Of a stretch of DNA of 64,000 nucleotides, positions 5,343 through 62,189 are shown piece by piece. Made by a program: the position numbers and the translations under genes. Under the pieces are notes generated by a model. That model was given only the letters and a program-made list of their open reading frames with translations. It was not told the origin of the DNA and made no database searches. Each line of letters opens with the position of its first letter. Position 1 is the first letter of the stretch. The DNA is taken from positions 35,339,583 through 35,403,582 of the forward strand of contig NC_088797.1 in the NCBI RefSeq assembly GCF_011386835.1, written 5' to 3'. Source of the stretch: Chrysemys picta bellii (lineage: Eukaryota; Chordata; Testudines; Emydidae).

Positions 5343-5819
5343 AGCCTCATAGATTATGTGCATTTAAACAGCAGGCACCGATTCTTTGCAGTGTTGGGCA
5401 CACTGGCCTCAAGATGGCTTTGTAGGCAACACCATTGAGACCTTCCACCACCATCCTGCAGTTGCTGAGCTTGAAATTGAACTCTAGGACCCCTGACATC
5501 AGGGTACAATTTCCTGGGTGATGACAGGAGCGGGTATGCGGGGTCCCCTAAAACAGCTGGCACAGATGCTCCATTTGTAATAATATTGTTTGTTGGGTAT
5601 AAGGTCCCTGCTTTTCCCTTCAAATACAAGCCTGATCTCCTCAGCAAGCTGGTATCATGAACCTTTCCCGTATTTCCAGTACTAGCTTTTAAGAACCTGC
5701 CTCTGATCGACCAAGTCTTGAAGAATGAGTGAATAGTATCCTGGGTAGTTTACGTACTCACTTGCACCTTCTGGCAGGCAAATGATGGACACAGAAGTCC
5801 CAGCGCATTTTGGGAATCC
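5343..5819 (-). pseudogene. relic of a PIF/Harbinger (HARBI1-like) transposase
   Basis: Reading the minus strand across several frames gives a chain of landmarks in the right order for a DDE_Tnp_4 transposase: a GFPKC phrase (intact elements have GFPNC), EYVNYPGYYSLILQDLVDQR (compare QYINRKGYFSMVLQALVDHR in the intact protein of this window), GNTGKVHD carrying a catalytic-region Asp, RRSGLY, VLGDPAYPLL, then FNFKLSNCRMVVE with the Glu, and finally ACCLNAHNL before a stop. Frameshifts and stops separate the blocks, and the FGRLKGRWR block after the Glu is lost. No N-terminal half, Myb partner or terminal repeats are visible nearby. It is clearly older than the elements at 41.9 and 57.4 kb and may belong to a different Harbinger lineage. 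A decayed copy of a host HARBI1-type gene is a less likely alternative. Confidence 0.75.
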
Positions 5820-6931
5820 CAGCCTCAACCAGCTATAATTTCAGGCACGTTTCTGCCCACCAAATACGGGTAAACCACCGTGTTAATTGCACTTGCTTGT
5901 GCTCACATGCATGAGTACATCGGTACACCCCAGTCAGAGCAGAGTTACACCAATACAGAGCAATTATGAAAATCCCACACTTCATCTCTACACAAAATTT
6001 CATGTTTGTAGATTCTTAATTACTTTATAGGAGCTCAGTTAAAGGTACATTTTTACTATAAAGGCCATTCCCAATGCCCATGTGTATAATATCTTGACAG
6101 ACATTGCCTGGAATTACACATTTCCTTTTAAACACATGCATTGTGATATATTTATGTACTAAGCATATATTTGCATAGTCCACATAAGCAGACTGATCAT
6201 CCCACATTTTCTAGAAATCAGGCATTTACCAGTTTTCTTTGGAAAGAATCAAGCCTCATTATCTAAATAAAGGGTATTGGCTCCTAAAAATTTGGAACGC
6301 CATCTTTGCGGAAAGTTGATCAAACAGGGCTGGGGGGGGGGGAAATCAAAGCTTTACTTTTATCATAGGTATTCAATTAAAATTAAAACATCCCCTAAAG
6401 ACTAATCTTTCAGGAATGTTATTTTGTTCCAAGTCAGAAATTAACACCATAGGAGACTTTAGGTGAAAGTGAGATTAGCAGCCAGTGATAAAACAATGCA
6501 GGAATGTTCCCATTTTTAATTATCATTACCGAATTCCACTAAATCTACTATTCATCACTGGTTATTACAGTTTTTTCTGCCTGAAGCAGAATTCTCAATA
6601 CAGCCAGAGATTAAGGGGGAGCTAAGATTTAGTCTTTTCCTCCTTGTACTAATGATCAGCAGCAGCAGGGACATCTAGATATCTGAGTGGACCACCACCC
6701 ACCAACCAGAGATAGATGGTATAACCAACTACCAGGGGGGCTCTTGTCTTCTCTGGTTGGAATGCCAGGCTATTATAAGCCAATATAGTTGAGTTTTCAT
6801 GTACTCTTATTTCCCATTCCTAAACTTCTCTCCCAGGATGCAGAATCCACTACAAATAATGGGTAATTCTCTCTTGCCACACAGTAAGTCCAAGTATCTT
6901 TTTCCATCGCAGAATAGGAATAGAATAAAAT
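5820..6931. other. non-coding DNA
   Basis: No gene or RNA seen. A poly-G run lies at about 6331-6341. The upstream half of the transposase relic is not recognisable beyond about 5820. Confidence 0.45.
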
Positions 6932-15086: not shown

Positions 15087-15237
15087 TAAGGATACACTAC
15101 GGGATTACTCCGATTTTACAGAATTTGATTTTTGGCAACAGATTGTATAAAGTCGAGTGCATGCAGCCACACTAAGCACATTAATTCGGCGGTGTGCGTC
15201 CATGTACCGAGGCTACCTTCGACTTCCAGGGTGTTGC

Positions 15238-15735
15238 ACAGTGGGTAGCTATCCCAGAGCTATCCCATAGTTCCCACAGTCTCCCCCGCCCATTGGAATT
15301 ATGGATTGAGCCCCCAATGCCTGAGGGGGCCAAAAATTTGTCGCGGGTGGTTATGGGTAAATGTTGTCAGTCAATCCTCCCTCCGTGAAAGCAACGACAG
15401 ACAATCATTTCGCGCCCTTTTCCCTGGATTGCCCAGGCAGACCCATAGCACGGCAACCATGGAGCCCGTTCAGCCTTTTTTCACTGTCATCGTAGGTCTA
15501 CTGGATGCTGCTGACAGACGTGGTACTGCAGCGCTACACAGCAGCATCCCCTTGCCTTTGCAAGTTGGCAAAGACGGTTACCAGCCATACTGTACCGTCT
15601 GCTGCTGTCATGGGTGCTCCTGCCCGGCCTCGGTGAGGTCGGTCGGGGGCGCCTGGACAAAAATGGGCATGACTCCCCAGGTCTTTCTCTTCTTTAAGTT
15701 TTGTCTAATGGAGAGTCAGTCCTGCCTAGAATATC
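15238..15735. repeat. left arm of long inverted repeat inside the Harbinger derivative
   Basis: Most of this stretch is the reverse complement of 16345-16830, with moderate divergence and small indels. Shared blocks include 'gagctcccaatgcctga', 'ctactggatgctgctg', 'cagcgctacacagcagcatcc' and 'gtcggtcgggggcgcctgg'. It starts near the subterminal region and ends next to the plus-strand Myb fragment. Confidence 0.8.
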
Positions 15736-15738
15736 AGG

Positions 15739-15917
15739 CAAGCCTACTAAAGAACCAGAGAGGCAAACGGCCGCTCCGGGTCAGAGCCCAGACATCCCGC
15801 AGAAATGATGAGCTGCATGCCATTCTAGGGGGTGCCCCTACAACAACCCCACCCACTGCTTCCCACCTCCCCCACCCCTCCCGGGCTACCTTGGCAGTTA
15901 TCCCCCCATTTGTGTGA
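15739..15917 (+). pseudogene. Myb/SANT-like partner gene fragment (end of domain and linker)
   Basis: Across one frameshift this reads a lysine/arginine-rich helix end, EANGRSGSEPQTS-like, then NDELHAILGGAPTTTPPT. It corresponds to residues about 83-118 of the intact protein at 57753 (ANGRSGSHPQTS, ALHSILGAAATTTPP). The frame ends at a stop at 15915-15917, and an AATAAA signal lies at 15924-15929. The domain core is missing here and found instead on the opposite strand at 16831-17057, so the gene has been broken and inverted. Confidence 0.7.
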
Positions 15918-15923
15918 TGAAGT

Positions 15924-15929
15924 AATAAA
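15924..15929 (+). terminator. polyadenylation signal AATAAA after the Myb fragment
   Basis: The hexamer AATAAA stands seven bases after the stop of the plus-strand Myb fragment. It is probably inherited from a gene of the parent element. Confidence 0.4.
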
Positions 15930-16019
15930 GAATGCATGAATTTGAAACAACACTGTCTTTATTGCCTCTGCAAGCAGAGATCAAAGGAGGGAGGGGAGGG
16001 CAGTTGGCTTACAGCGAAG

Positions 16020-16070
16020 TTGAGTGAACCACCATTCTACACTTGCTCAGCCTATAGCTGAAAATGGGAA
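16020..16070 (-). pseudogene. short Harbinger transposase fragment
   Basis: The minus strand encodes SYRLSKCRMVV, matching NYRLSKCRMVVE at residues 323-334 of the intact transposase at 60536-61807. The catalytic Glu that should follow is replaced by His. Only this block survives, showing that the element descends from a transposase-bearing parent by internal deletion. Confidence 0.7.
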
Positions 16071-16344
16071 TCTGTGATAAGCACTAGGATAGTAGCACAG
16101 GCAGGACTGAACCTCCATTTGTGTGTGGGCCTTTGGTTGACACTGGTAAAATACAAACTGTCCCAGGATATGTATGTTGGGGGACAGTTCTAAACGGCAG
16201 CTTAATTTTTTTATTTGCAGCAAAATGTAGAAGTCTAAGTATCTGATTGTGAGCCCTGGGAGCAAGGGGTAGGCTGGGGTAGGTGCGACCGCACGGTGCT
16301 GCCGACTGGGAGAGCAGCCTGAGGCAGACGCCTACAGCTGGCAT

Positions 16345-16830
16345 GATATTCCAGGCAGGACTGAATCTCCATTGGACAAAACTTAAAGAAGAGAATGACC
16401 TGGAGTCATTCCCATTTTTGTCCAGGCGCCCCCGACCGACCTTACCAAGGCCAGCCAGGAGCACCCATGTCTGCCCAGGTGCCCCCGACCGACCTCACTG
16501 AGGCCAGCCAGGAGCACCCACGGGACAACGATGACAGTTACCAGTCATACTGCACCGTCTGCAAGGCAAAGGGATGCTGCTGTGTAGCGCTGCAGCACCG
16601 CGTCTGCCAGCAGCATCCAGTAGACATACGGTGACAGTGAAAAAAGGTGAGAAACGATTTTTTTCCTTTTGCTTTCACAGGAGAGGGTAAGGGGACTCAC
16701 GACATATACCCTGAACCACTCGCGACAATGTTTTTGACCCTTCAGGCATTGGGAGCTCAATCCAGAATTCAAATGGTTTTCGGAGAGTGCGGGAACTGCG
16801 GGATAGCTGCAGTCGTCAGTCACCCCTCCC
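16345..16830. repeat. right arm of long inverted repeat, with an internal tandem duplication
   Basis: Reverse complement of 15238-15735. Within it, a roughly 50-bp unit (gcccccgaccgacct...aggccagccaggagcaccca) is tandemly duplicated at about 16424-16521; the left arm has one copy only. A smaller palindrome around the gacrgttaccag...ctgcaccgtc phrase is present in both arms. Confidence 0.8.
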
Positions 16831-17057
16831 TCCGTGAGCGTCCATTTGATTCTTTGGCTTTCTGGTACGCTTGTCTCAGCTCCTTGAGTTTCACGCAGCA
16901 CTTGGAGATTTTTTCAAATGTTTGGGCATTTCGTTTTTTGGAATGGAGTTCTGATAGAACAGATTCATCTCCCCATACAGAGATCAGATTCAGTATCTCC
17001 CGTACGATTCATGCTGGAGCTCTTTTTTGATTCTGGCTGCGCTGATGAGCTCTGCAT
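16831..17057 (-). pseudogene. Myb/SANT-like partner gene fragment (domain core)
   Basis: The minus strand starts with an ATG and MQSS as in the intact protein. After a frameshift it reads VREILNLISVWGDESVLSEL, then SKKRNAQTFEKISK, and CCVKLKELRQAYQKAKESNGRS. This is the trihelix Myb/SANT-like domain, with the second Trp anchor kept, but about 12 residues between KISK and the KLKELR helix are deleted and a stop precedes VREIL. The first Trp anchor is lost. It is broken relative to the complete gene at 57753. Confidence 0.8.
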
Positions 17058-17422
17058 GGTCACCTGTGCTGATCAGCGCTTCACGCTGGGCAAACAGGAA
17101 ATGAAATTCAAAAGTTCGCGGGGCTTTTCCTGTCTACCTGGCCAGTGCATCCGAGTTCAGATTGCTGTCCAGAGCGGTCACAATGGTGCACTGTGGGATT
17201 GCTCCCGGAGGCCAATACCATCGAATTGCGGCCACACTAACCCTAATTTGACATGGCAATGTTGATTTCGGTGCTACTCCTCTCATCGGGGAGGAGTACG
17301 GAAATCGATTTTAAGAGCCTTTTACTTCGAAATAAATGGTTTCATTGCATGGATGAGTGCAGGGTTAATTCGATTTAACGCTGCTAAATTCGACCTAAAC
17401 TCATAGTGTAGACCAGGCCTAA

Positions 17423-41887: not shown

Positions 41888-42250
41888 TGGGGCCTTGGCT
41901 ACACTTGCAGCTGTACAGCGCTGTGAGTTAAACTGTCTTCGTACAGCTGAGTAGAGAAAGCGCTGCAGTCTGTCCACACTGACAGCTGACAGCGCACTGT
42001 CGTGGCCACATTTGCAGCGGCATTGGGAGCGGAGCATTATAGGCAGCTATCCCACAGAGCACCTCTTACCCTTCTGGCACCATGTGTTGTGGGAAGGGGG
42101 CGGGGGGGCGGGGCATTCTGGGTCCTGTCCCAATGCCCCGTGATGCATCACTTCACATCCCAGCAATCCCTGTGTTTCCGTCCACATTTGGTGCCATCTT
42201 TCAACAGTTTCTGTGCAGCACAATCTGTGTTCCGTTTCAGTCTGGGGGAA

Positions 42251-43493
42251 ATGGAGCCTGAACTGCTGAGGCGTATGCTGACGAGTCTCACCAGCACATA
42301 ACGTTTGGCAGTCGAGCTATTCCTTAAGATCCAAAGTGACAGTGAGGAGTCCGACAATGATATCGAGTCGCATAACACGTACAACACGAGATTGCTTGTG
42401 GCATTCACGGATACGCTCAGCACCGTGGAACACCGCCTTTGGGCTCGGGAAACAAGCACTGACTGGTGGGATCATATCATCATGCAAGTCTGGGATGAAG
42501 AGCAGTGACTGCAGAACTTTCGGATGAGAGAAGCCACTTTCATGGGACTGTGTGAGGAGCTCGCCTCCACCCTGTGGCGCAAGGACACGAGATTGAGAGC
42601 TGCCTTGCTGGTGGAGAAGCGGGTGGCTATTGCAATCTAGAAGCTGGCAACTCCAGACAGCTACCGGTCAGTTGCGAACCAGTTTGGAGTGGGAAAGTTG
42701 ACTGTTGGAATCGTGTTGATGCAAGTTTACAGGGCCATTAATCACATCCTGCTCAGAAGAACCGTGACTCTGGGTAACGTACAGGACATAGTGGATCGCT
42801 TTGCACAAATGGGGTTCCCTAACTGTGGAGGGGCGATAGATGGGATACATATTCCTATTCTGGCACCACCCCACCTAGCATCTGAGTACGTTAATCGGAA
42901 GGGGTATTTCTCTATGGTTCTCCAGGCGCTTGTGGATCACCGTGGGCGTTTCATTGACATTAACACAGGCTGGCCCGGAAAGGTGCATGATGCACGTATC
43001 TTTCGGAACACTGGCCTGTTCAGGAAGCTGCAGGCCGGGACTTTTTTCCCCAGAGTGGAAGATCACAGTAGAGGAAGTCGAAATGCCCATTGTGATCCTT
43101 GGAGACCCTGCTTAGCCGTTAATGCCGTTGCTCATGAAACCCTACACAGGGAGCCTTGACAGCAGCAAGGAGCGGTTCAACTACAGGCTGAGCTGGTGCC
43201 AAATGACTGTGGAGTGTTCTTTTGGCCGTTTAAAGGGCCGCTGGCGCTCTCTGTACGGGAAGCTGGACTTGGCTGAACACAACATCCCCGCAGTTATAAC
43301 CGCGTGCTGTGCCCTCCATAATATTTGTGAAGGGAAGGGTGAAAGATTCAGTCAGGCATGGACCTCCAAGGTTCAACACCTGGAGGCTGACTTTGCACAG
43401 CCAGACAGCAGAGTTATTAGAGGGGCCCAGCGCAGGGCTGCAAGGATTAGGGATGCCTTGAGGGAGCAATTTGAGGCTGAAAACCAGCAGTGA
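42251..43493 (+). pseudogene. PIF/Harbinger transposase pseudogene
   Basis: It aligns with the intact 423-aa transposase at 60536-61807 over nearly all its length: RLWARETSTDWWDHI, RMREATFMGLCEEL, LATPDSYRSVANQFGVGK, the GGAIDG block with the first acidic residue, GWPGKVHDARIFRNTGLF, VILGDPA and VECSFGRLKGRWRSL are all recognisable. Four in-frame stops (42299, 42506, 42638, 43113) and one frameshift disable it. The frameshift is best explained by an extra base in the T/C homopolymer at 43042-43051. The frame ends at a stop at 43491-43493 and is followed by AATAAA. The acidic residues of the catalytic core are all still present, so loss of function is recent relative to the relic at 5.5 kb. 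Confidence 0.93.
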
Positions 43494-43617
43494 TATCTGG
43501 TGCCCTGCATTTGAGTGAAGTGCAGTGGTTACAATGTTAGTAGGAATCTGTGTTTGCTAATCTGATTTTCAGTGCCTGTTTCTTTCCTGGGCTAAGGTAT
43601 CTTTTACTTTATGCAAT

Positions 43618-43623
43618 AATAAA
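43618..43623 (+). terminator. polyadenylation signal for the transposase pseudogene
   Basis: AATAAA lies 125 bases after the transposase stop, facing the opposite-strand signal at 43650-43655. This is the expected layout for convergent genes with closely spaced ends. Confidence 0.6.
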
Positions 43624-43649
43624 GAATGTTTTCCACGCCAAAAAATCCA

Positions 43650-43655
43650 TTTATT
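43650..43655 (-). terminator. polyadenylation signal for the Myb-like pseudogene
   Basis: TTTATT on plus is AATAAA on minus, downstream of the minus-strand Myb-like gene end at 43739. Confidence 0.5.
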
Positions 43656-43738
43656 GAAAATAAAATTCATTAATTGAAAAGAAACACAACTGTTTGAGAA
43701 TCAGAAAGGGCATGGGGGTGTGGTGGGGAACGGTACAA

Positions 43739-45455
43739 TCACAGATTTGCATATGTCCTGTCTGGAGTGCTGTGCACTGAGTGCTGCACTTCAGGATGGC
43801 TATACTGCATGGTGTTGGGGGTTGAGTGCAGAGGGTAAGGGTCGTAGTTTTCAGGGATGGGTGGTGAAGATACAGGTATTGGAGGCAGCTGGTGGCGGTA
43901 AGAACCCGGATGTTGGGGAAAGTGGGTTGGAGGTGACATGGGGGCACAAAGGAAAGAGACAAGGGACAAGGGCTGCGGGGGGGGGGGGGAGGTAGTGCTC
44001 TGCCTGCATGGCGACAAGCGCCTGGATAGAGTCCGCTTGGTGTTCCATGATGCTTATCAGCTGGTCCGTGCTTTGCTGCAGGTGCTCCATGCTTCGCCGC
44101 CGGTGAGCTGCGTTTTCTTGGCGGATCCTGTTTTCGCTCTCCCTCCACTCCTGCGCTTTTTGATTCTCTTTAAGAGATTGCTGCATCACTTCTTGCAGCA
44201 TGTCTTCTTTGCTTTTTCGCGATCTCTTCCTGTGTTTTCAGTGTCTCTCAGCCGGTGATAACACGGACGGCTGAGGTCTCAAGGTTGCATCTGTAAAGGC
44301 AAAATGCAACACTTAACAGAGGCAGCATTGTTTATACCAGACAGAGTAATGATTCCCCCGCACTTAAGGAGGGCACACACCGTCTACACAATAGCATAAT
44401 TTTCCCGTTCCAAAGAGAGCGCACATAACCCACGGGAGCCCCAAAATGGTGAGTAAGGGGGACTGATTGTTTCATGGCTGTACTGTCCTCTGGGTTTCTG
44501 TGCCTTGGGGAGAGCCAACAGCTGCAGGGGGCACCTACACTGAACACTGTCCCAACATTTTCCACAGGAGTTCGTCCTGGAAGATATCTCGCTGCTAAGG
44601 GTGACCTGGGAAGCAAGGGAGGGTCTTCTACTGCAATGCGGCTTCCGCCCTGGCCCATATGTAGCTTGCCTGTGTGCAGCAATGGTCCCCCTGCCCCTCG
44701 CGGCACAGTGGCGCGGACATGTTAGCCTGACTGGGACAAGGACTGCAGTGGCTCTCCCAAGAAACCTGCACAGGCACATTGCTCATGTTCTGGATGAGAC
44801 TTTCTAAGAGATTATTGAGGCCGATTACCACGATGTGATAGACCACATCAATGCGCTATTCCGCATCTAGGCATGCATGCAGCCCTAACCCTCCTCTCCC
44901 AAAGAGCCCTCACCGAAAAATTTCTTCCCCCCCCTCAAAAAGCCACTTACCGGGAACCTGCTCTTCTGTTTGTCCTCCACCAGGTATCAGCCGCTGCGAC
45001 TGGCTACCTTCCTCCTGGCTCGAGAAGAGCTCCTGGCTGCATGCCTCCAGGGATTCCGGGGTGTCTCCCCCCACCCCAGCATCCTCACTCCTGCTTTCCT
45101 CCTCCTCCTGCTCTGAAGTGTCCATGGTGGTGCTCGGAGTGGAGGTGGGGTCACCCCCAAGTATCGCGTCCAGCTCTTTGTAGAATCGGCAGGTCGTGGG
45201 GGGAGCACCGGAGCGGCCGTTTGCCTCGCAGGCTTTGCGGTAGGCACTCCGCAGCTCCTTCACTTTAACCTAGCACCGCAGTGCGTCCCGGTCATGGCCC
45301 CTTTCCATCATGGCCCTTGATATGTGCCCAAAGGTATAGTAATTCCTATGGCTGGAGCGCAGCTGGGACTGGACAGCTTCCTCCCCCAAAACACTGATGA
45401 GGTCCAGCAACCCGCCATTGCTCCATGCTGGGGCTCACTTGGCGCATGGAGGCAT
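43739..45455 (-). pseudogene. Myb/SANT-like partner gene pseudogene, two exons
   Basis: Exon 1 runs from the ATG at 45455 to 44951, followed by a GTAAGT donor. It reads APAWSNGGLLDLISVLGEEA, RNYYTFGHISRAMMERG, VKVKELRSAYRKACEANGRSG and CRFYKELDAILGGDPTSTPS, the same trihelix Myb/SANT-like domain and linker order as the intact protein at 57753, then an acidic Ser/Glu-rich stretch. Exon 2 begins at 44290 after a CTTTACAG acceptor and encodes a basic patch (KHRKRSRKSKEDM) and a Gln/Arg-rich coiled-coil-like helix (LQEVMQQSLKEN, ENAAHRRRSMEHLQQSTDQL). Stops occur after MPPCAK and RDALRC in exon 1 and after SPAERH in exon 2, and a frameshift lies near 43850. The plus-strand small gene sits in its intron. 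Confidence 0.88.
44577..44870 (+). pseudogene. third Harbinger gene, decayed copy (97 codons, one stop)
   Basis: One continuous frame from 44577 to the TAG at 44868-44870 is broken only by a TAA at 44805-44807. It reads LEDISLLRVT, RPGPYVACLCAAMVP, QWRGHV, and VALPRNLHRHIAHVLDETF. It aligns without gaps with the 96-aa protein at 58537-58827 (MGDITLMRIS, RPGPYAALLCRAMIP, SWHGNV, AALPRNLMQRLSNYLQESF), with about 37 of 96 positions identical by hand count. The initiating ATG is CTG here. A TTTTCCACAG acceptor-like sequence stands just upstream (44559-44568). It lies in the intron of the opposite-strand Myb-like gene, as in the intact element. See the intact copy for discussion of the possible domain. 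Confidence 0.8.
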
Positions 45456-45858
45456 GGTCACCTGGAAAGATTCTCTGATAGCACTACACACCTGGCTGAG
45501 CAAACAGGAAGGGGATTTTCAAAATTCCCGGGGAATATAAAGGGCGGGTCTGACAGTTGGTCACCTGAGGCCAGGGCAGTAGAGTTCGAACTGATGACCA
45601 GAGTGGCTAGAACAGGCATTGTGGGATACTGCCGAATACTTCTGGAGGCCAATCAGAGCGCATTGGGTGGCCACACTGGCGCTGCAGCACAGCAGCGGCA
45701 GCACAATACTCTTTATTCCTCTCGGGGAGGTGGAGTACAAGCAGCGCTGTAGCTGTGGAGATACAGCGCTGTACATGCCTTGCCAGTGTGGACGGGGAGC
45801 GAGTTACAACGCTGAGGGCGGCTTTATTGTGCTGTAACTCTCAAGTGTAGCCAAGGCC

Positions 45859-51256: not shown

Positions 51257-54200
51257 AGAGAATATAAGAATGACCATACTGGGTCAGACTGTCTAGCCCA
51301 GTATCCTGTCTTCCGACAAGAGTCAATGCTAGATGCTTCAAAGGGAATGAACAGAACAGAGCAATCATCAAGTGATCCATCCTGTTGTTTAACCCCAGCA
51401 TCTGGCAGTCAGAGGGTTAGGGATACCCAAAGCGCAGGGTTGCATCCCTGACCATCTTGGCTAATAGCGATTGATGGACCTATCCATGAATTTATCAAAT
51501 TCTTTTTTTAATCCAGTTATAGCTTTCACTTTCACAACATCCCCCGGCAATGAGTTCCATAGGTTGACTGCATGTTCTGTGAAGTACTTCCTTTTGTTTG
51601 TTTTAAGCCTGCTGCCTATTATTTCATTGCATGACCCCTGGCTCTTGTGTTATGTGAAGGGGTAATTAGCACTTCCTTATTCACTTTCTCCACACCATTC
51701 ATGATTTTATAGACTTCTGTCACATACCCACCCACCCCCAGTCATCTCTTTTCAAGCTAAATAGGCTCAGTCTTTTTAAACTCTTTTTGTATCATATTTA
51801 TCATTTTAATCATTTTTTTTGCCCTTTGCTGTATCTCTTCCATTTCTAATATTTTTTTTGAGATGGGGTGACAAGAACTTCCTGCAGTATTCAAGGTGTG
51901 GCATACCCATGGATTTATATAGTGGCATTATGATATTTACTGTTTTATTATCTAATCCCTTTCCTAATGGCTCCTAACATTATTAGCTTTTTTGACTCCT
52001 GCTCCACATCGAGCAGATGTTCTCAGAGAACTATCCACAGTGACTCCAAGATCTCTTTCTTGAGCGGTAAGAGCTAATGTATAGTTGGGATTATGTTTTC
52101 CCAATATGCATTACTTTGCTTTTATCAACATTGAATATCATCTCACATTTTCTTGCCCAGTCAGCCAGTTTTGTGAGATCCCTTTGTAGCTTTTCACATT
52201 CAGCTTTGGACTTAACTCTCTTGAGTAATTTTGTATCATCTGCAAACTTTACCAACTCACTGTTTTCCCCTTTTTCCAGATCATTTATGAATGTTACAGT
52301 ACAGACCCATGGGAGAAACCGCTATTTACCACTCTCCATTCTGAGAGCTGACCATTTATTCCTACCCTTGGTTTCCTATCTTTTAACTAGTTACTGATCC
52401 ATGAGAAGACCTTCTCTTAAGCAAACTAAGAGCCTCTGGTGAGGGACCTTGTCAAAGACATAGTGTACTTGGACTTTCAGAATATCAACTGGATCACACT
52501 TGTCCACATGTTTGTTGGCCTCCCTCAAAGAATTCTAATAGATTGGGGAGGCATGATTTCCCTTTACAAAAGCCGTGTTGATTCTTCCCCAACAAATCAT
52601 GGTGATCTAGGGGTCTGATCATTCTGTTCTTTACTATAGTTTCAATCAATTTTTACTGGTACTGAAGTTAGTCTTAATGGCCTTTAACTGCCAGAATTGC
52701 CCCTGGAGCCTTTTTTTTAAAATTGGCATCACAGTAGCTATCCTCCAGTCACCTGGTTCAGAAGCTGATTTAAGTGATAGGTTATATACCCCAGTTAGTA
52801 GTTCTGCAAATTTCATATTAAAGTTCCGTCAGAACTCTTGGGTGAATAACATCTGGTCCTGGTGACTTTTTACTGTTTTATCAATTTGTTCCAAAACCTC
52901 CTCTGTTGACACCTCACTCTGGGACAATTCCTCAGATTTGTCACCTAAAAAGGATGGCTCAGGTGTGGGAATCTCCCTCACATCTTCTGCAGTGAAGTCC
53001 AATGCAAAGAATACATTTAGCTTCTCCACAATAGCTTTGTCTTCCTTGAGTGCTCCTTTAGCATCTCAATCATCCAGTGGCCCCACTGACTGTTTTGCAC
53101 ATTTCCTGATTCTGATGTACTTAATTTTTTTGCTGTTAGTTTTTGTGTCTCTTGCTAGCTGCTCTTCCAATTCTTTTGTGGCCTACCTAATTATACTTTT
53201 ACACTTGACTTGCCAGAGTTTACGGTCCCATTTCCCACAATTAGAATTCGACTACCAATTTTTAAAGGGTACCTTTTTGTCTCTAACCACTTCATTTTTT
53301 GGTCCTCTTACTGTTTTTTAATTTGGGGTATACATTTAATTTGAGCTCTATTCTGGTTTCTTTAAAAAGTTTGTAGGCACTTCATTCTTGTGACTATTTT
53401 TTTTAATTTCTGTTTAACTAGCTTCCTCATTTATGTATAGTTGCCCTTACTGAAATTTAATGCTACTGTAGTAGGTTTCTTTGGTATTTTCCCGCCCCCA
53501 GGGATGTTAAATTTAATTATATTATGGTCACTATTACCAAGCGGTTTAGCTATATTTACCTCTCTTGGACCAGATCCTGTGCTCCAATTAGGACTCAATC
53601 AAGAATTGCCTCTTGTCTTCTGGGTTCCAGGACTAGCTGCTCCAAGCAGCAGTCATAAATGGTGTCTAGTAACTTTATTTGTGCAGCCTGTCCTGAGGTG
53701 ACATGTACCCCGTCAATATGGGGATAGTTGAACTCCTCTATTAACTATTATTATTATTGAGTTTTCTATTTTTATAGCCTCTCTAATCTCCTTGAGCATT
53801 TCACAATCACTGTTGTTATCATCCTATCAGGTGGTCGGTAATATATTCTTACTGCTATACTCTTATTATTCAAGCATGGACTTTCTATCCAGAGCAATTC
53901 TGGTATAATTTGATTCATTTAAATTTGGTTTTACTAAATTTGACTCTATGCTTTCTTTCATATAGAGACCATGACCTACTCTGTCACTCCTGTATATTTT
54001 ATACTCTGATATTACAGTGTCCCATTGATTGACATCATTCCATCAAGGTTCTGTGATGCCTGTTATATCAATATGCTCATTTAATAGCAGGCACTCCACT
54101 TCACCCTTCTTAGTATTTAAACTTTTAGCATTTGTATACAAGCACTTATTCAATGTATCACGTCTTAGTTGGTTGCCTTCCTGGGAAGTAATTTGAATGG

Positions 54201-57356: not shown

Positions 57357-57640
57357 GGCCTGGTCTACACTAGGCGTTTATGTCGAAGTTAGCGCCGTTA
57401 CATCGAATTAACCCTGCACCCGTCCACACTGCAATGCTATTTAGTTCGACATAGAGGTCTCTTTAATTCGACTTCTGTACTCCTCCCTGACAAGGGGAGT
57501 AGCGCTAAATTCGACATGGCCATGTCGAATTAGGCTAGGTGTGGATGGAAATCGACGCTAATAGCTCCGGGAGCTATCCCACAGTGCACCACTCTGTTGA
57601 CGCTCTGGACAGCAGTGCGAGCTCGTATGCTCTGACCAGC
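57357..57640. promoter_or_regulatory. left subterminal region with clustered TCGA boxes
   Basis: Within the first 210 bp there are about seven TCGAA/TTCGA/TCGAC boxes (for example near 57382, 57404, 57445, 57466, 57510, 57525 and 57551). Such boxes are likely binding sites for the Myb-like protein or transposase, as in other Harbinger systems (inference). The region must also hold the Myb gene promoter, whose exact place is not visible. The right end carries a matching cluster. Confidence 0.5.
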
Positions 57641-57752
57641 CACACAGGAAAAGCCCCGGGAAAATTTGAATTGGAATTCCTTTTCCTGTCTGGCCAGTTT
57701 GAATCTCATTTCCTGTCTGGACATCGTGGCGAGCACAGCAGCACTGGCAACG

Positions 57753-59787
57753 ATGCAGAGCTCTCCAGCAGTGATGGCCGTGCAGTCTGTGAATAGAAAG
57801 AGGGCCCCAGCATGGACTGATCGGGAAGTCTTGGATCTCATCGCTGTGTGGGGCGATGAGTACGTGCTTTCCGAGCTGCGATCCAAAAGAAGGAATGCAA
57901 AGATCTACGAGAAGATCTCTAAAGACATGTCAGAGAGAGGATACAGCCGGGATGCAACGCAGTGCCGCGTGAAAATCAAGGAGCTGAGACAAGGCTACCA
58001 GAAGACCAAAGAGGCAAACGGACGCTCCGGATCCCATCCCCAGACATCCCGTTTCTACGAGGCACTGCATTCCATCCTCGGTGCGGCCGCCACCACTACC
58101 CCACCAGTGACCGTGGACTCTGAGGATGGGATAGTGTCCACGGCCGGTTCCTCGGACATGTTAGGGGACGGGGAAGATGAGGAAGGAGATGAGGAGGGCG
58201 AGGCAGTCGGCAGCGCTCACAACGCTGATTTCCGCGACAGCCAGGATCTCTTCATCACCCTTACAGAGATCCCCTACGAAGCGTCCCCAGCCGTTACCCC
58301 GGACACAGAATCTGGGGAAGGATCAGCCAGTAAGTGTTGTAAACATCTAAACATTTATTTTTAACAGAACAGGAATATTAACAATTAAAAGAATGGGTTG
58401 TTCATGATTAGTGTGCCCTAGGCGCTTAACGGTTTACTCATGGGCAGTGCAAGTTTTGAAAAAAAATCTAGCAATGTCCGGTTTTCAGTGATTGTCCTGC
58501 ACAAGCTGCTCTACTGTTTATTCCCTGCTACTGCAGCTACAGTAAAATGCGGTCTATATGTCCGGGGATAGAGCAGTAATCCTCCTGGGACATCTCGATG
58601 AAGCTCTCCTGGAGGTAATTTGAAAGCCGTTGCATGAGGTTCCTGGGGAGAGCGGCCTTATTGGGTCCTCCGAAGTACAACACGTTGCCGTGCCACGAGA
58701 CTATCAAGTACTCGGGAATCATTGCTCTGCACAGCAGGGCGGCATACGGCCCTGGTCTTTGGAGGCTTTCCCGGAGCATTCTCTCTCTCTCACTCTCAGA
58801 GATCCTCATCAGGGTGATGTCGCCCATGGTGACCTGCTTTGAATTAGGTAGGGGAATGTTAGTGTTGGGACTGCTTTCCCGTTCCTTTACAGAACTGTAA
58901 CCGCTGGTTTGTAGCCACGTGGTGGAGGCGGGAGAGGGGCAGCCGAAAGGGATCATTCCCGGGGACAGCCGCGAGGGGGTGGGACAGGGGCAGAGTTCCC
59001 GCTTGCCGGATTGCTGGCAGCAGGAACTGACATTGCTTTAAATGTGAAATGAGGCCAGTGGTAATATAAAAGTTTTAAACTGCCACAAGTGTACGGCTTA
59101 CCATGTCTGCCTGCAACAGAAATTCCATTGTCCTGCCCCGCTTCTCAAATGTGCTGTGCACTGAATGCGAAGGCCGAGAATTCGACCTTGTGCTGAGTGC
59201 GCATGTGATAGGTGCTGTGCATGGTCTTGTTCACAGAGAAAGACTATGTTCTTTGTTCACAACTACATTTATCTTTCAGAGGAATTCACTCCCTTTTTCC
59301 CATTTCCACAGCCCCATCTGCGACTGTCTCACAACCTAGCCTGGCATCACACTCCCAGAGGCTAGCGCGGATTAGGCGTAGGAAGAAGAGGACACGGGAG
59401 GACATGTTCTCTGAGCTTATGGCCTGTTCCCAAGCCCAGGCAGCACAGCAGACGCAGTGGCGGGAGAACTTGACCCGAATGCACCAAGCCAACATGGATC
59501 GGGAGGAGAGGTGGCGGCAGGAAGACCAGCAGGCGACTCAAACGCTGCTTGGACTACTGAGGGAGCAAACGGACACGCTCCGGCGCCTTGTGGATGTTCT
59601 GCAGGAACGGAGGCAGGAGGACAGAGCCCCGCTACAGTCCATCTGTAACCGCCCTCCCCCGCCACCAAGTCCCATACCCACCTCACCCAAAGTGCAAAGA
59701 AGGAGAGGCGGCAGAGTCCCTGCTAACTCTCACTCCACCCCTGCAGAGAGCTCTAGTAGCAGAAGGCTCTCATTTCCCAAAATTTGA
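57753..59787 (+). CDS. Myb/SANT-like transposon partner protein, two exons, 350 aa
   Basis: Exon 1 is 57753-58329, the intron 58330-59311 (GTAAGT donor, TTTCCACAG acceptor) and exon 2 59312-59787, giving one uninterrupted frame of 350 residues. The ATG at 57753 (MQSSPAV) is chosen because the same start is retained in the 17 kb copy; an upstream in-frame ATG at 57666 is possible. Residues about 18-87 form a trihelix Myb/SANT-like DNA-binding domain with Trp21 and Trp33 as anchors and a basic third helix (CRVKIKELRQGY). An acidic stretch follows at about 137-150, then a basic patch RIRRRKKRTRE at 212-222 (likely nuclear localisation), a long Gln/Arg-rich helix at 224-294 and a proline-rich tail. 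In known Harbinger systems this partner brings the transposase to the nucleus and binds subterminal DNA. AATAAA follows the stop by about 70 bases. Confidence 0.92.
58517..58522 (-). terminator. polyadenylation signal just after the small minus-strand gene
   Basis: TTTATT on plus is AATAAA on minus, only 14 bases after the TAG-type stop of the 96-aa frame (58539-58537). Its closeness supports this frame being a real 3' exon. Confidence 0.55.
58537..58827 (-). CDS. third Harbinger gene, 96-aa protein of unknown function (possible BEN-like fold)
   Basis: I do not recognise this with certainty. The frame starts at an ATG in an excellent initiation context (GTCACCATGG) and a CAG splice-acceptor-like sequence stands six bases before it; AATAAA follows the stop by 14 bases. 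Blocks in order are MGDITLMRIS, a charged helix SERERMLRESLQ, RPGPYAALLCRAMIP (19-38 region), SWHGNVLYFGG, and ALPRNLMQRLSNYLQESF (59-76) with an acidic tail. The order helix, W-G turn, 'ALP', amphipathic helix recalls the C-terminal half of BEN domains, which bind DNA, but the resemblance is weak and untested. It lies antisense in the intron of the Myb-like gene. The 44577-44870 copy aligns without gaps at about 38% identity, which argues for selection on the protein. Upstream the frame is open to 58956, so a longer start or an upstream exon is possible. Confidence 0.72.
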   Translation of the reverse strand: MGDITLMRISESERERMLRESLQRPGPYAALLCRAMIPEYLIVSWHGNVLYFGGPNKAALPRNLMQRLSNYLQESFIEMSQEDYCSIPGHIDRILL

Positions 59788-59858
59788 AAAGTTCTTTCCT
59801 TCCTGCCTGACACAAGCCCCCGTCCAAGTTTCACCTCCCAATGCCATGTGTAGTTGAT

Positions 59859-59864
59859 AATAAA
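59859..59864 (+). terminator. polyadenylation signal of the Myb-like gene
   Basis: AATAAA 72 bases after the stop codon. Confidence 0.7.
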
Positions 59865-60413
59865 AAATACGTTTCTGTTAACTACTGTTTCAATCATGTT
59901 CTTTTGGAGGAGGAGGGGAAAGGGGGTTGGTAATTGGACAGGACAGTCACCTTTGGCAGGGTACATATCGGGGGCAGGCACAGCAGCAGGGCACATACAC
60001 AGTGCAGTGATGCAGTGACTAGTTACCCTGGTTAGTCTGGGAGGTTGTTTTCATGTTATGTGGTGGGGGGTGGGTTGCTCTGTGACTTTGTGGGGGGGGA
60101 GGGCAGTTACAGATCTTAAGCGCCGGTCCTTAGGCAGGATCACAGAGCCACACAGCAGGGGATCTGTAACCGTCCTCCCCCTGCCACAAAGTCACATAGA
60201 CCCCCCATACACACAGTCCCGATCAGGAGGGGGACAGGCTCTGTTGAAACAACCATCCCACCGCAGCAGAGCCTGTCAATCCTTGAGTTTAGAAGCTGCA
60301 TTCGCGTCACTACACTACACCCGCTCCGCACCACAGTCTGCGTCCCAGTTTTAAAAAATTCCTGCGAAAACAGTATTAAAGAAAATGGTGTGCTTTAACA
60401 AAGTAGAACTATT

Positions 60414-60419
60414 TTTATT
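60414..60419 (-). terminator. polyadenylation signal of the transposase gene
   Basis: AATAAA on minus, about 117 bases after the transposase stop at 60536. Confidence 0.6.
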
Positions 60420-60535
60420 TCGAAACGTGTGTTGGAAGGGGGGGTGAATGGGGTATGTAACTGGATAGGATAGTCAACATTAACTGGGTAAAGAAACGGG
60501 GGCAGGTTTAGCTTCTCAGTACACAAACTTTAAAG

Positions 60536-61807
60536 TCACAGGTTACCCTGCTCACTCAGGAACTTTGCTTTCAAAGCCTCCCGGATGCACAGCGCTTCCC
60601 GCTGGTCTCTTCTAATCGCCCAGCTGTCTGGCTGTGAGTAACTATTTTCCTCAACCTCCCACCCGGCCATAAAGGTCTCCCCCTTGCTCTCACAGAGATT
60701 GTGGAGCACACAGCAAGCTGCTATAACAATGGGGATATTGGTTTCGCTGAGATCACAGCGAGTCAGTAAGCTTCTCCATCTCCCCTTGAGACGGCCAAAA
60801 GCACACTCCACCACCATTCTGCACTTGCTCAGCCGGTAGTTGAAGAGTTCTTTTTCAGTGTCCAGGGCGCCAGTATAGGGCTTCATGAGCCAGGGCATTA
60901 GCGGGTAGGCTGGGTCCCCGAGGATGACTATAGGCATCTCCACATCCCCAACAGTTATTTTGTGGTCCGGGAAGTAAATACCTTGTTGCAGCCGTCTAAA
61001 CAGACCAGAGTTCCTGAAAACACGAGCGTCATGAACCTTGCCCGGCCATCCCACGTAGATGTTGGTAAAACGTCCCCTGTGGTCCACCAGTGCTTGCAGC
61101 ACCATGGAAAAGTAGCCCTTTCGGTTAATGTACTGGGTGGCCTGGTGGTCCGGTGCCAGGATAGGGATGTGAGTTCCATCTATGGCCCCACCGCAGTTTG
61201 GGAATCCCATCGCTGCGAAGCCATCTATGATCGCCTCCATGTTTCCCAGGGTCACTACCTTTGGCAGCAGTACATCAATGATTGCCTTCGCTACTTGCAT
61301 CACAACAACCCCCACGGTAGATTTGCCCACCCCAAACTGGTTCGCGACTGACCAGTAGCTATCTGGCGTTGCAAGCTTCCAGAGGGCTATAGCCACTCGC
61401 TTCTGTACACTCAGTGCAGCTCGCAAGCGGGTGTCACTGCGCTTCAGGGCAGGGGACAGCAACTCACAAAGTTCCAGGAAAGTTCCCTTCCGCATGCGAA
61501 AGTTTCGCAGCCACTGGGATTCATCCCAGACCTGCAGCACTATGCGGTCCCACCACTCAGTGCTTGTTTCCCGTGCCCAGAATCGCCGTTCCACAGCATC
61601 AACATGACCCATTGCCACCGTGATGTCCTCGGCGCTGGGTCCCCTGCTTTCTGAGAGGTCTGTGCTACTCTCAGACTTCAGGACATCACCGCGGTGCCGT
61701 AGCCTCCTCGCCTGACTTTTCTGCATCTGCCTCAGGGAAACCTGTATGATAAGCTGCGAGGCGTTGAGAGCGGCCACAACTGCAGCGATGGTCGCAGCGT
61801 GCTCCAT
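60536..61807 (-). CDS. PIF/Harbinger DDE transposase, 423 aa, intact
   Basis: Single-exon frame of 423 residues, a full length for HARBI1-like transposases (roughly 350-450). The first 60 residues are variable and Ser/Glu-rich; residues about 76-185 form the helical N-terminal region with a helix-turn-helix-like part around SVANQFGVGKSTV. The catalytic domain carries the family landmarks GGAIDGTHIPI (Asp210), GKVHDARVF (Asp260), VILGDPAYPL (Asp298) and MVVECAFGRLKGRWR (Glu334), among which the DDE triad lies. ACCVLHNLCESKGE follows as the usual C-terminal motif. No stop or frameshift is present. The ATG at 61807 gives MEHAATIAAV; the broken copy at 42251 begins MEPELL at a similar place. Enzyme: cuts and joins the element ends at TAA targets together with the Myb-like partner. 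An interrupted reading frame elsewhere in the family makes this copy the likely source of activity, if any. Confidence 0.95.
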   Translation of the reverse strand: MEHAATIAAVVAALNASQLIIQVSLRQMQKSQARRLRHRGDVLKSESSTDLSESRGPSAEDITVAMGHVDAVERRFWARETSTEWWDRIVLQVWDESQWLRNFRMRKGTFLELCELLSPALKRSDTRLRAALSVQKRVAIALWKLATPDSYWSVANQFGVGKSTVGVVVMQVAKAIIDVLLPKVVTLGNMEAIIDGFAAMGFPNCGGAIDGTHIPILAPDHQATQYINRKGYFSMVLQALVDHRGRFTNIYVGWPGKVHDARVFRNSGLFRRLQQGIYFPDHKITVGDVEMPIVILGDPAYPLMPWLMKPYTGALDTEKELFNYRLSKCRMVVECAFGRLKGRWRSLLTRCDLSETNIPIVIAACCVLHNLCESKGETFMAGWEVEENSYSQPDSWAIRRDQREALCIREALKAKFLSEQGNL

Positions 61808-62029
61808 GCTCGCAGTGCTGTGGCGTCCGCGCTGTCAATGACTGGAAAAGTGCGCAAACTGATTTCCCGCCGGTGCTTTCAGGGAGGGAGGGCGGGAGTG
61901 ATGGATGGATGACGACAGTTACCCAAAAGCACCCTCGATTCATTTTGTTACCCAGAAGGCATTGCCGGCTACACCCAGAATTCCAATGGGCAGAGGGGAC
62001 TGCGGGAACTGTGGGATAGCTGACCACAG

Positions 62030-62186
62030 CGCACCGCTTCGAATGTCGACGCTTTCACCGTTAGTGTGGACGCACAAAGTCGAATTACTGTCCTTAGTGT
62101 GGACACACACGTTCGACTTTGCAATATCGATTCCAAAAATTCGATGCAAGTAAAATCGAACTACTCTCGTAGTGTAGACAAGGCCT
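62030..62186. promoter_or_regulatory. right subterminal region with clustered TCGA boxes
   Basis: About seven TCGA-centred boxes occur in 150 bp (near 62037, 62045, 62082, 62113, 62128, 62141 and 62157), in both orientations, mirroring the left end. Includes the transposase gene's upstream side. Likely protein-binding sites for excision (inference). Confidence 0.5.
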
Positions 62187-62189
62187 AAG

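Follow-up and report, generated by a model that had tools for sequence, protein, structure and literature searches.

We analyzed a 64,000-nucleotide (nt) stretch of the genome of the turtle Chrysemys picta bellii (positions 35,339,583 to 35,403,582 of NC_088797.1; hereafter the window), which contains two transposons of the PIF/Harbinger type, E1 and E2, belonging to two related families. In addition to a transposase and a Myb-like partner gene, both elements carry a third open reading frame, ORF3, on the opposite strand of the Myb intron. Selection between the two families and many open copies elsewhere in the genome indicate that ORF3 is very probably a third protein-coding gene, spliced as modeled below.

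A conserved frame antisense in the Myb intron

A sequence-only reading of the window had proposed a 96-amino-acid gene on the minus strand of E2, inside the intron of the plus-strand Myb gene, and this description was confirmed, with a stronger case than the one first made. The frame is open for 96 codons at 58827-58540 (-) and is then closed by a stop (to 58537), it lies within the Myb intron (Table 1), an acceptor-like CAG directly precedes GTCACCATGG, and an AATAAA starts at 58522, 14 bases past the stop. The gapless match claimed with 44577-44870 (+) in E1 spans 96 codons, of which 37 encode identical residues and 56 score as positive. A tblastn search of the window with the E2 protein found the same element (44583-44861 (+), E 2.8e-20) and no further match better than E 2 in the 64 kb, and a profile of E1 and E2 ORF3 found no third place in the window. 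Two parts of the proposal needed correction. The E1 frame is not kept whole in the window copy, which has an in-frame TAA at 44805-44807 and CTG in place of ATG. Nor is the frame's own ATG the probable start, as E1-type loci are without it and an upstream ATG that ends an exon is likelier; that first exon had been overlooked in the sequence-only reading.

The differences between the two frames were examined codon by codon. Nucleotide identity between E1 and E2 ORF3 was 0.52 at first, 0.60 at second, and 0.375 at third codon positions. The ratio of nonsynonymous to synonymous divergence (dN/dS, NG86) was 0.27 in the ORF3 frame and 0.56-1.35 in the remaining five frames, with synonymous sites close enough to saturation that these ratios, like those that follow, are rough. 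The observed ratio of nonsynonymous to synonymous proportions (pN/pS) was reached in 1 of 2000 column shuffles within 9-base blocks. Family majority sequences, one per family and built from 24 and 27 distinct exon sequences, gave 0.315 for ORF3, 0.75-1.79 for the other frames, and again 1 of 2000 shuffles. By the same method, dN/dS was 0.33 for Myb exon 1, 0.22 for Myb exon 2, 0.13 for transposase part A, and 0.24 for ORF3 (transposase part B was saturated between E1 and E2); the ORF3 value lies between those of the two Myb exons. Conservation was confined to the frame: when the Myb intron was divided into four pieces, only ORF3 exon 2 gave an E1-E2 alignment that no shuffle equaled (0 of 500), and shuffles scored as high as the 5' flank, the ORF3 intron, and the 3' flank in 58, 87, and 495 of 500 cases, respectively. 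Within families, dN/dS was 0.35-0.56 (pN/pS 0.38-0.42) and exon and intron diverged at similar rates; we set the within-family ratios aside as evidence because protein scores determined which loci were used and because dead copies drift. Judged by its codon pattern, ORF3 has diverged between families in the way typical of purifying selection acting on a predicted protein. The between-family ratio, a check suggested in the sequence-only reading, lies far under 1, and the codon pattern together with the counterpart in the other family rules out a chance open frame, as that reading had argued.

A spliced gene model and its genomic copies

Within the Myb intron, each frame is preceded on its own strand by an ATG that stands immediately before a splice donor: ATG/GTAAGC at 59104 in E2 and ATG/GTGAGTAAG at 44446 in E1. 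The two strands of the window together contain 6 occurrences of ATGGTRAG. An acceptor AG ends just ahead of the conserved frame in both elements, and both junctions are phase 0, joining M/VTMGDITL in E2 and M/EFVLEDISL in E1. Ranked with a simple weight matrix among the window's GT sites, the donors fall in the top 0.5% (E2) and top 0.2% (E1), and among its AG sites the acceptors fall in the top 8% (E2) and top 2% (E1). In E1 the unspliced frame from the ATG reaches a TGA at its seventh codon; therefore, splicing is needed in this element. In our model, a two-exon transcript would be made from the transposase strand, the start codon would be the last codon of exon 1, and the predicted protein would have about 99-101 amino acids. 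The two AATAAA signals past ORF3 in E2 (58522 and 58359) precede Myb exon 1, and the mature ORF3 and Myb transcripts therefore need not overlap there. Two other start codons were considered and rejected. The position of the in-exon ATG of E2 is CTG in 28 of 30 E1-type loci and CTA or CCG in the other two, and the sequence at an in-frame ATG farther upstream in E2 (59128-59126) is preserved without change in just 2 of 28 loci, one being the window's own.

Each protein was used in its own search of the whole genome (2.37 Gb, 9732 contigs). The best 150 of 14,134 candidates for the E2 protein had 94-100% identity and a stop in 2 of 150, and the best 150 of 12,632 candidates for the E1 protein had 81-99% identity and a stop in 9 of 150, one of these 9 being the window copy; only the best protein matches were scored, making these counts lower bounds that are biased toward open copies. 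From these results we took 28 E2-type loci (8 from the search output and 20, at 7.3 kb, selected among the candidates to cover a variety of copies) and, also from the search output, 30 E1-type loci, both sets including the window's own copy. The acceptor AG was present in 28/28 E2-type and 30/30 E1-type loci, ATG/GTRAG in 26/28 and 28/30, Myb exon 1 in 28/28 and 29/30, and Myb exon 2 in 27/28 and 26/30. A transposase was found at 28/30 E1-type and 19/28 E2-type loci, with 8 of the 9 misses at short loci, and an in-frame stop in ORF3 at 2/28 E2-type and 2/30 E1-type loci. In the further copies that were inspected, the frame adjoins Myb and transposase, an outcome in favor of the sequence-only reading, and the strand arrangement matches that of the window, with one exception that has extra Myb matches nearby. 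The 3-bp flanks were equal in 13 of the 16 E2-type loci for which both ends were found (TAA or TTA in 11) and in 6 of 8 E1-type copies (TAA or TTA in 4); no pair of ends was found in 4 of the 20 long E2-type loci. The transposase, the Myb gene, the terminal inverted repeats (TIRs), and the marks of target duplication therefore identify both families as PIF/Harbinger, with a third gene in addition.

Seven E1-type ORF3 copies with 84-86% identity to the E1 protein lie on one strand of G000:C3:13760979-13938730, about 28-32 kb apart, a spacing that suggests tandem duplication of a unit of about 30 kb containing the element. Nine of the 30 E1-type loci (L044-L052), on separate small contigs, have an identical predicted ORF3 protein and reflect either recent amplification or assembly duplicates.

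Several points weigh against a third gene. Besides the scoring bias and the near-saturation noted above, the selection test is a single pair, with two families compared. No AATAAA was found after the ORF3 frame in E1 and no TATA-type box upstream of ORF3, and the gene model itself is a prediction from splice signals conserved in both families. ORF3 is also on the same strand as the transposase and downstream of it, and its phase-0 acceptor AG is present in 58/58 loci, features expected if a long transposase transcript bypassed the end of the transposase and joined ORF3 exon 2 as an alternative 3' exon, so that ORF3 would be translated fused to the transposase N-terminus or from a long shared transcript. 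However, AATAAA separates the transposase stop from ORF3 in both window elements (at 60419 in E2 and at 43618 and 43659 in E1) and a local upstream ATG/GTRAG is present in 54/58 loci, and we regard this arrangement as unlikely. A non-coding role in controlling Myb expression, as regulatory sequence or antisense RNA, would suit the intronic, antisense position of the stretch and the AATAAA signals that would end the RNA ahead of E2 Myb exon 1. It is largely refuted by the codon pattern, with differences clustered at third codon positions and synonymous changes in the ORF3 frame alone; the scored copies are also mostly open (148/150 and 141/150, by a scoring that favors open copies), and we consider this role highly improbable.

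The ORF3 protein and the BEN question

The ORF3 protein had no match beyond chance in Pfam, NCBIfam, PHROGs, or PDB sequences; a Pfam match to UNC45-central at E 0.09-0.18 was taken as chance. Relatives were also sought in viral contigs and prokaryotic genome contigs, and none was confirmed. The candidate considered, already named in the sequence-only reading, is the BEN domain. Foldseek with a first structure model gave as best matches three BEN chains of two proteins (BEND3 BEN4 and NACC1), above the next fold, and a profile alignment of 40 distinct ORF3 copies with BEN was equaled by 1 of 100 shuffles. The other sequence tests were marginal: against a profile of six BEN sequences, shuffles scored as high as the E2 protein in 12 of 1000 cases, and the best pairwise comparison, E2 protein with Insensitive, was equaled in 15 of 1000 shuffles with BLOSUM62 and 112 of 1000 with BLOSUM45.

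Other results do not favor a BEN relationship. The E1 protein was matched by 200 of 1000 shuffles against the same six-sequence profile, pairwise scores against single BEN domains were mostly at shuffle level, and a two-row ORF3 profile against single BEN domains was equaled by 43 to 167 of 200 shuffles. Structure prediction gave two models of poor quality (pLDDT 46.5 and 54.4), of which the second, an AlphaFold model, had no BEN match among those listed in Foldseek or VIA. Six forms of the ORF3 protein gave no match to Pfam BEN (PF10523) at E 10, in a search whose HMMER filters drop weak matches; as a control, a typed fly-like BEN domain matched at 4e-22. A three-sequence BEN profile gave nothing (score 9.3, shuffle mean 10.2; control BEND6, 58.6% probability), and repeating it with 40 ORF3 copies gave a score of 8.4.

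These comparisons and models leave a BEN-like fold for ORF3 at about an even chance. Almost as probable is a real protein unrelated to BEN, one that would have a small helical fold of a new kind and might serve, for instance, as an adaptor bridging Myb and transposase. The lack of any family match beyond chance, the marginal sequence tests, and the second model all accord with such a protein, whereas the BEN chains that head the first model's matches, ahead of the next fold, and the 40-copy profile do not. On the BEN reading, ORF3 may bind DNA or chromatin in concert with the Myb protein and transposase or in opposition to them, either assisting as an accessory factor or regulating expression or transposition. 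Any particular role, such as DNA-binding accessory or transposition regulator, is less likely than not. The fuller proposal, that some vertebrate PIF/Harbinger transposons are three-gene elements whose nested antisense gene encodes a BEN-like DNA-binding regulator or helper of transposition, is tentative and somewhat less likely than its converse.

Window features and relation to known elements

The features of the two elements are collected in Table 1. The Myb frame of E2 is intact. Around the convergent ends of its Myb and transposase genes (59641-60199) lie direct and inverted repeats of 21-67 nt.

Table 1. Positions of the two PIF/Harbinger elements and their predicted genes in the window
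Feature	Position	Strand	Remarks
Element E2, complete PIF/Harbinger transposon	57357-62184		TIR GGCCTGGTCTACACTA / GGCCTTGTCTACACTA; TAA both sides
E2 target duplications, TAA	57354-57356 and 62185-62187
E2 Myb/SANT gene exon 1	57753-58329	+	Myb_DNA-bind_4, E 7.8e-22; donor A/GTAAGT, phase 1
E2 Myb intron, ORF3 on opposite strand within	58330-59311	+	splice signals, phase 1
E2 Myb gene exon 2	59312-59787	+
E2 ORF3, ATG ending exon 1	59102-59104	-	then donor GTAAGC
E2 ORF3 intron, 268 nt	58834-59101	-	phase 0
E2 ORF3 exon 2 (VTMGDITL...RILL, stop)	58537-58833	-	last 96 codons are the frame first noted
E2 AATAAA past ORF3	58517-58522	-	second AATAAA starts at 58359; both within Myb intron
E2 transposase, 423 amino acids, frame intact	60536-61807	-	Pfam DDE_Tnp_4, E 3.2e-37
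Element E1, decayed PIF/Harbinger transposon, second family	41891-45858		TIR GGCCTTGGCTACACTTG; TGG both sides
E1 transposase, broken by stops and a frame break	42215-43484	+
E1 Myb exon 1, broken	44951-45440	-
E1 Myb intron, ORF3 on opposite strand within	44291-44950	-	splice signals, phase 1
E1 Myb exon 2, broken	43851-44290	-	one stop in aligned part
E1 ORF3, ATG ending exon 1	44446-44448	+	then donor GTGAGTAAG
E1 ORF3 intron, 119 nt	44449-44567	+	phase 0
E1 ORF3 exon 2 (EFVLEDISL...FRI, stop)	44568-44870	+	in-frame TAA in window copy

Elsewhere in the window, 15093-17419 contains broken-up E2-like Harbinger DNA, namely end sequences and fragments of Myb exon 1, from deleted or rearranged copies, and 5443-5822 (-) contains, in three pieces, transposase fragments of another Harbinger family, 42-77% identical to the E2 transposase; neither of these remnants gave an ORF3 match above noise. 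Reverse-transcriptase-like frames at 52091-53065 (-) resemble fragments of CR1-type long interspersed nuclear elements.

The available text of two papers describes Harbinger as a two-gene system that requires the transposase as well as the Myb protein (PMC9179366), with two open reading frames typical of its elements (PMC9179366, PMC4482050) and present in most autonomous elements of the PHIS groups except Spy (PMC4482050). E1 and E2 share with PIF/Harbinger elements a DDE_Tnp_4 transposase, a Myb/SANT partner, short TIRs starting with GG, and 3-bp target-site duplications (TSDs) that are mostly TAA or TTA; they differ from this two-frame pattern in the third conserved gene on the opposite strand of the Myb intron. 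The NuwaII group of PHIS, with target C/TNA/G and known from one turtle according to the accessible part of PMC4482050, resembles them in its GG termini, in the TNA duplication of most copies, and in the E2-type length near 4.7-4.9 kb. It differs from E1- and E2-type copies in that these vary in the flanking C and G and in that its description, in the part of that paper available, includes no third gene. ISL2EU, another PHIS relative, likewise has an accessory protein beside its transposase, but the same partial source gives this as a YqaJ nuclease encoded by the second frame, with TSD AT, whereas ORF3 is a third gene without a YqaJ match. The BEN domains of BEND3 (BEN4), NACC1, Insensitive, Bsg25A, and BEND6 are similar to ORF3 in size, in mostly helical prediction, and in the best Foldseek matches of one model; ORF3 differs in having no Pfam BEN match, mostly shuffle-level similarity, and a second model without a match. 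In the literature searched, partly available as text and with most subscription papers, Repbase entries, and preprints outside the search, we found no description of a third Harbinger gene, and Harbinger and the BEN domain were mentioned together in unrelated passages alone.

A selected third gene would mean that, at least in these families, the recognized two-gene Harbinger system lacks a component. ORF3 would then exemplify a nested antisense gene within a transposon intron and is a candidate regulator or missing cofactor of Harbinger transposition. If its fold is BEN-like, transposons could be a source or carrier of a DNA-binding domain used in host chromatin factors, and if the three-gene, BEN-like reading is true, a cut-and-paste transposon would include a domain of the chromatin-factor type as an integral component maintained by selection. 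Because young, open copies are numerous in this turtle genome, the third gene can be tested directly.
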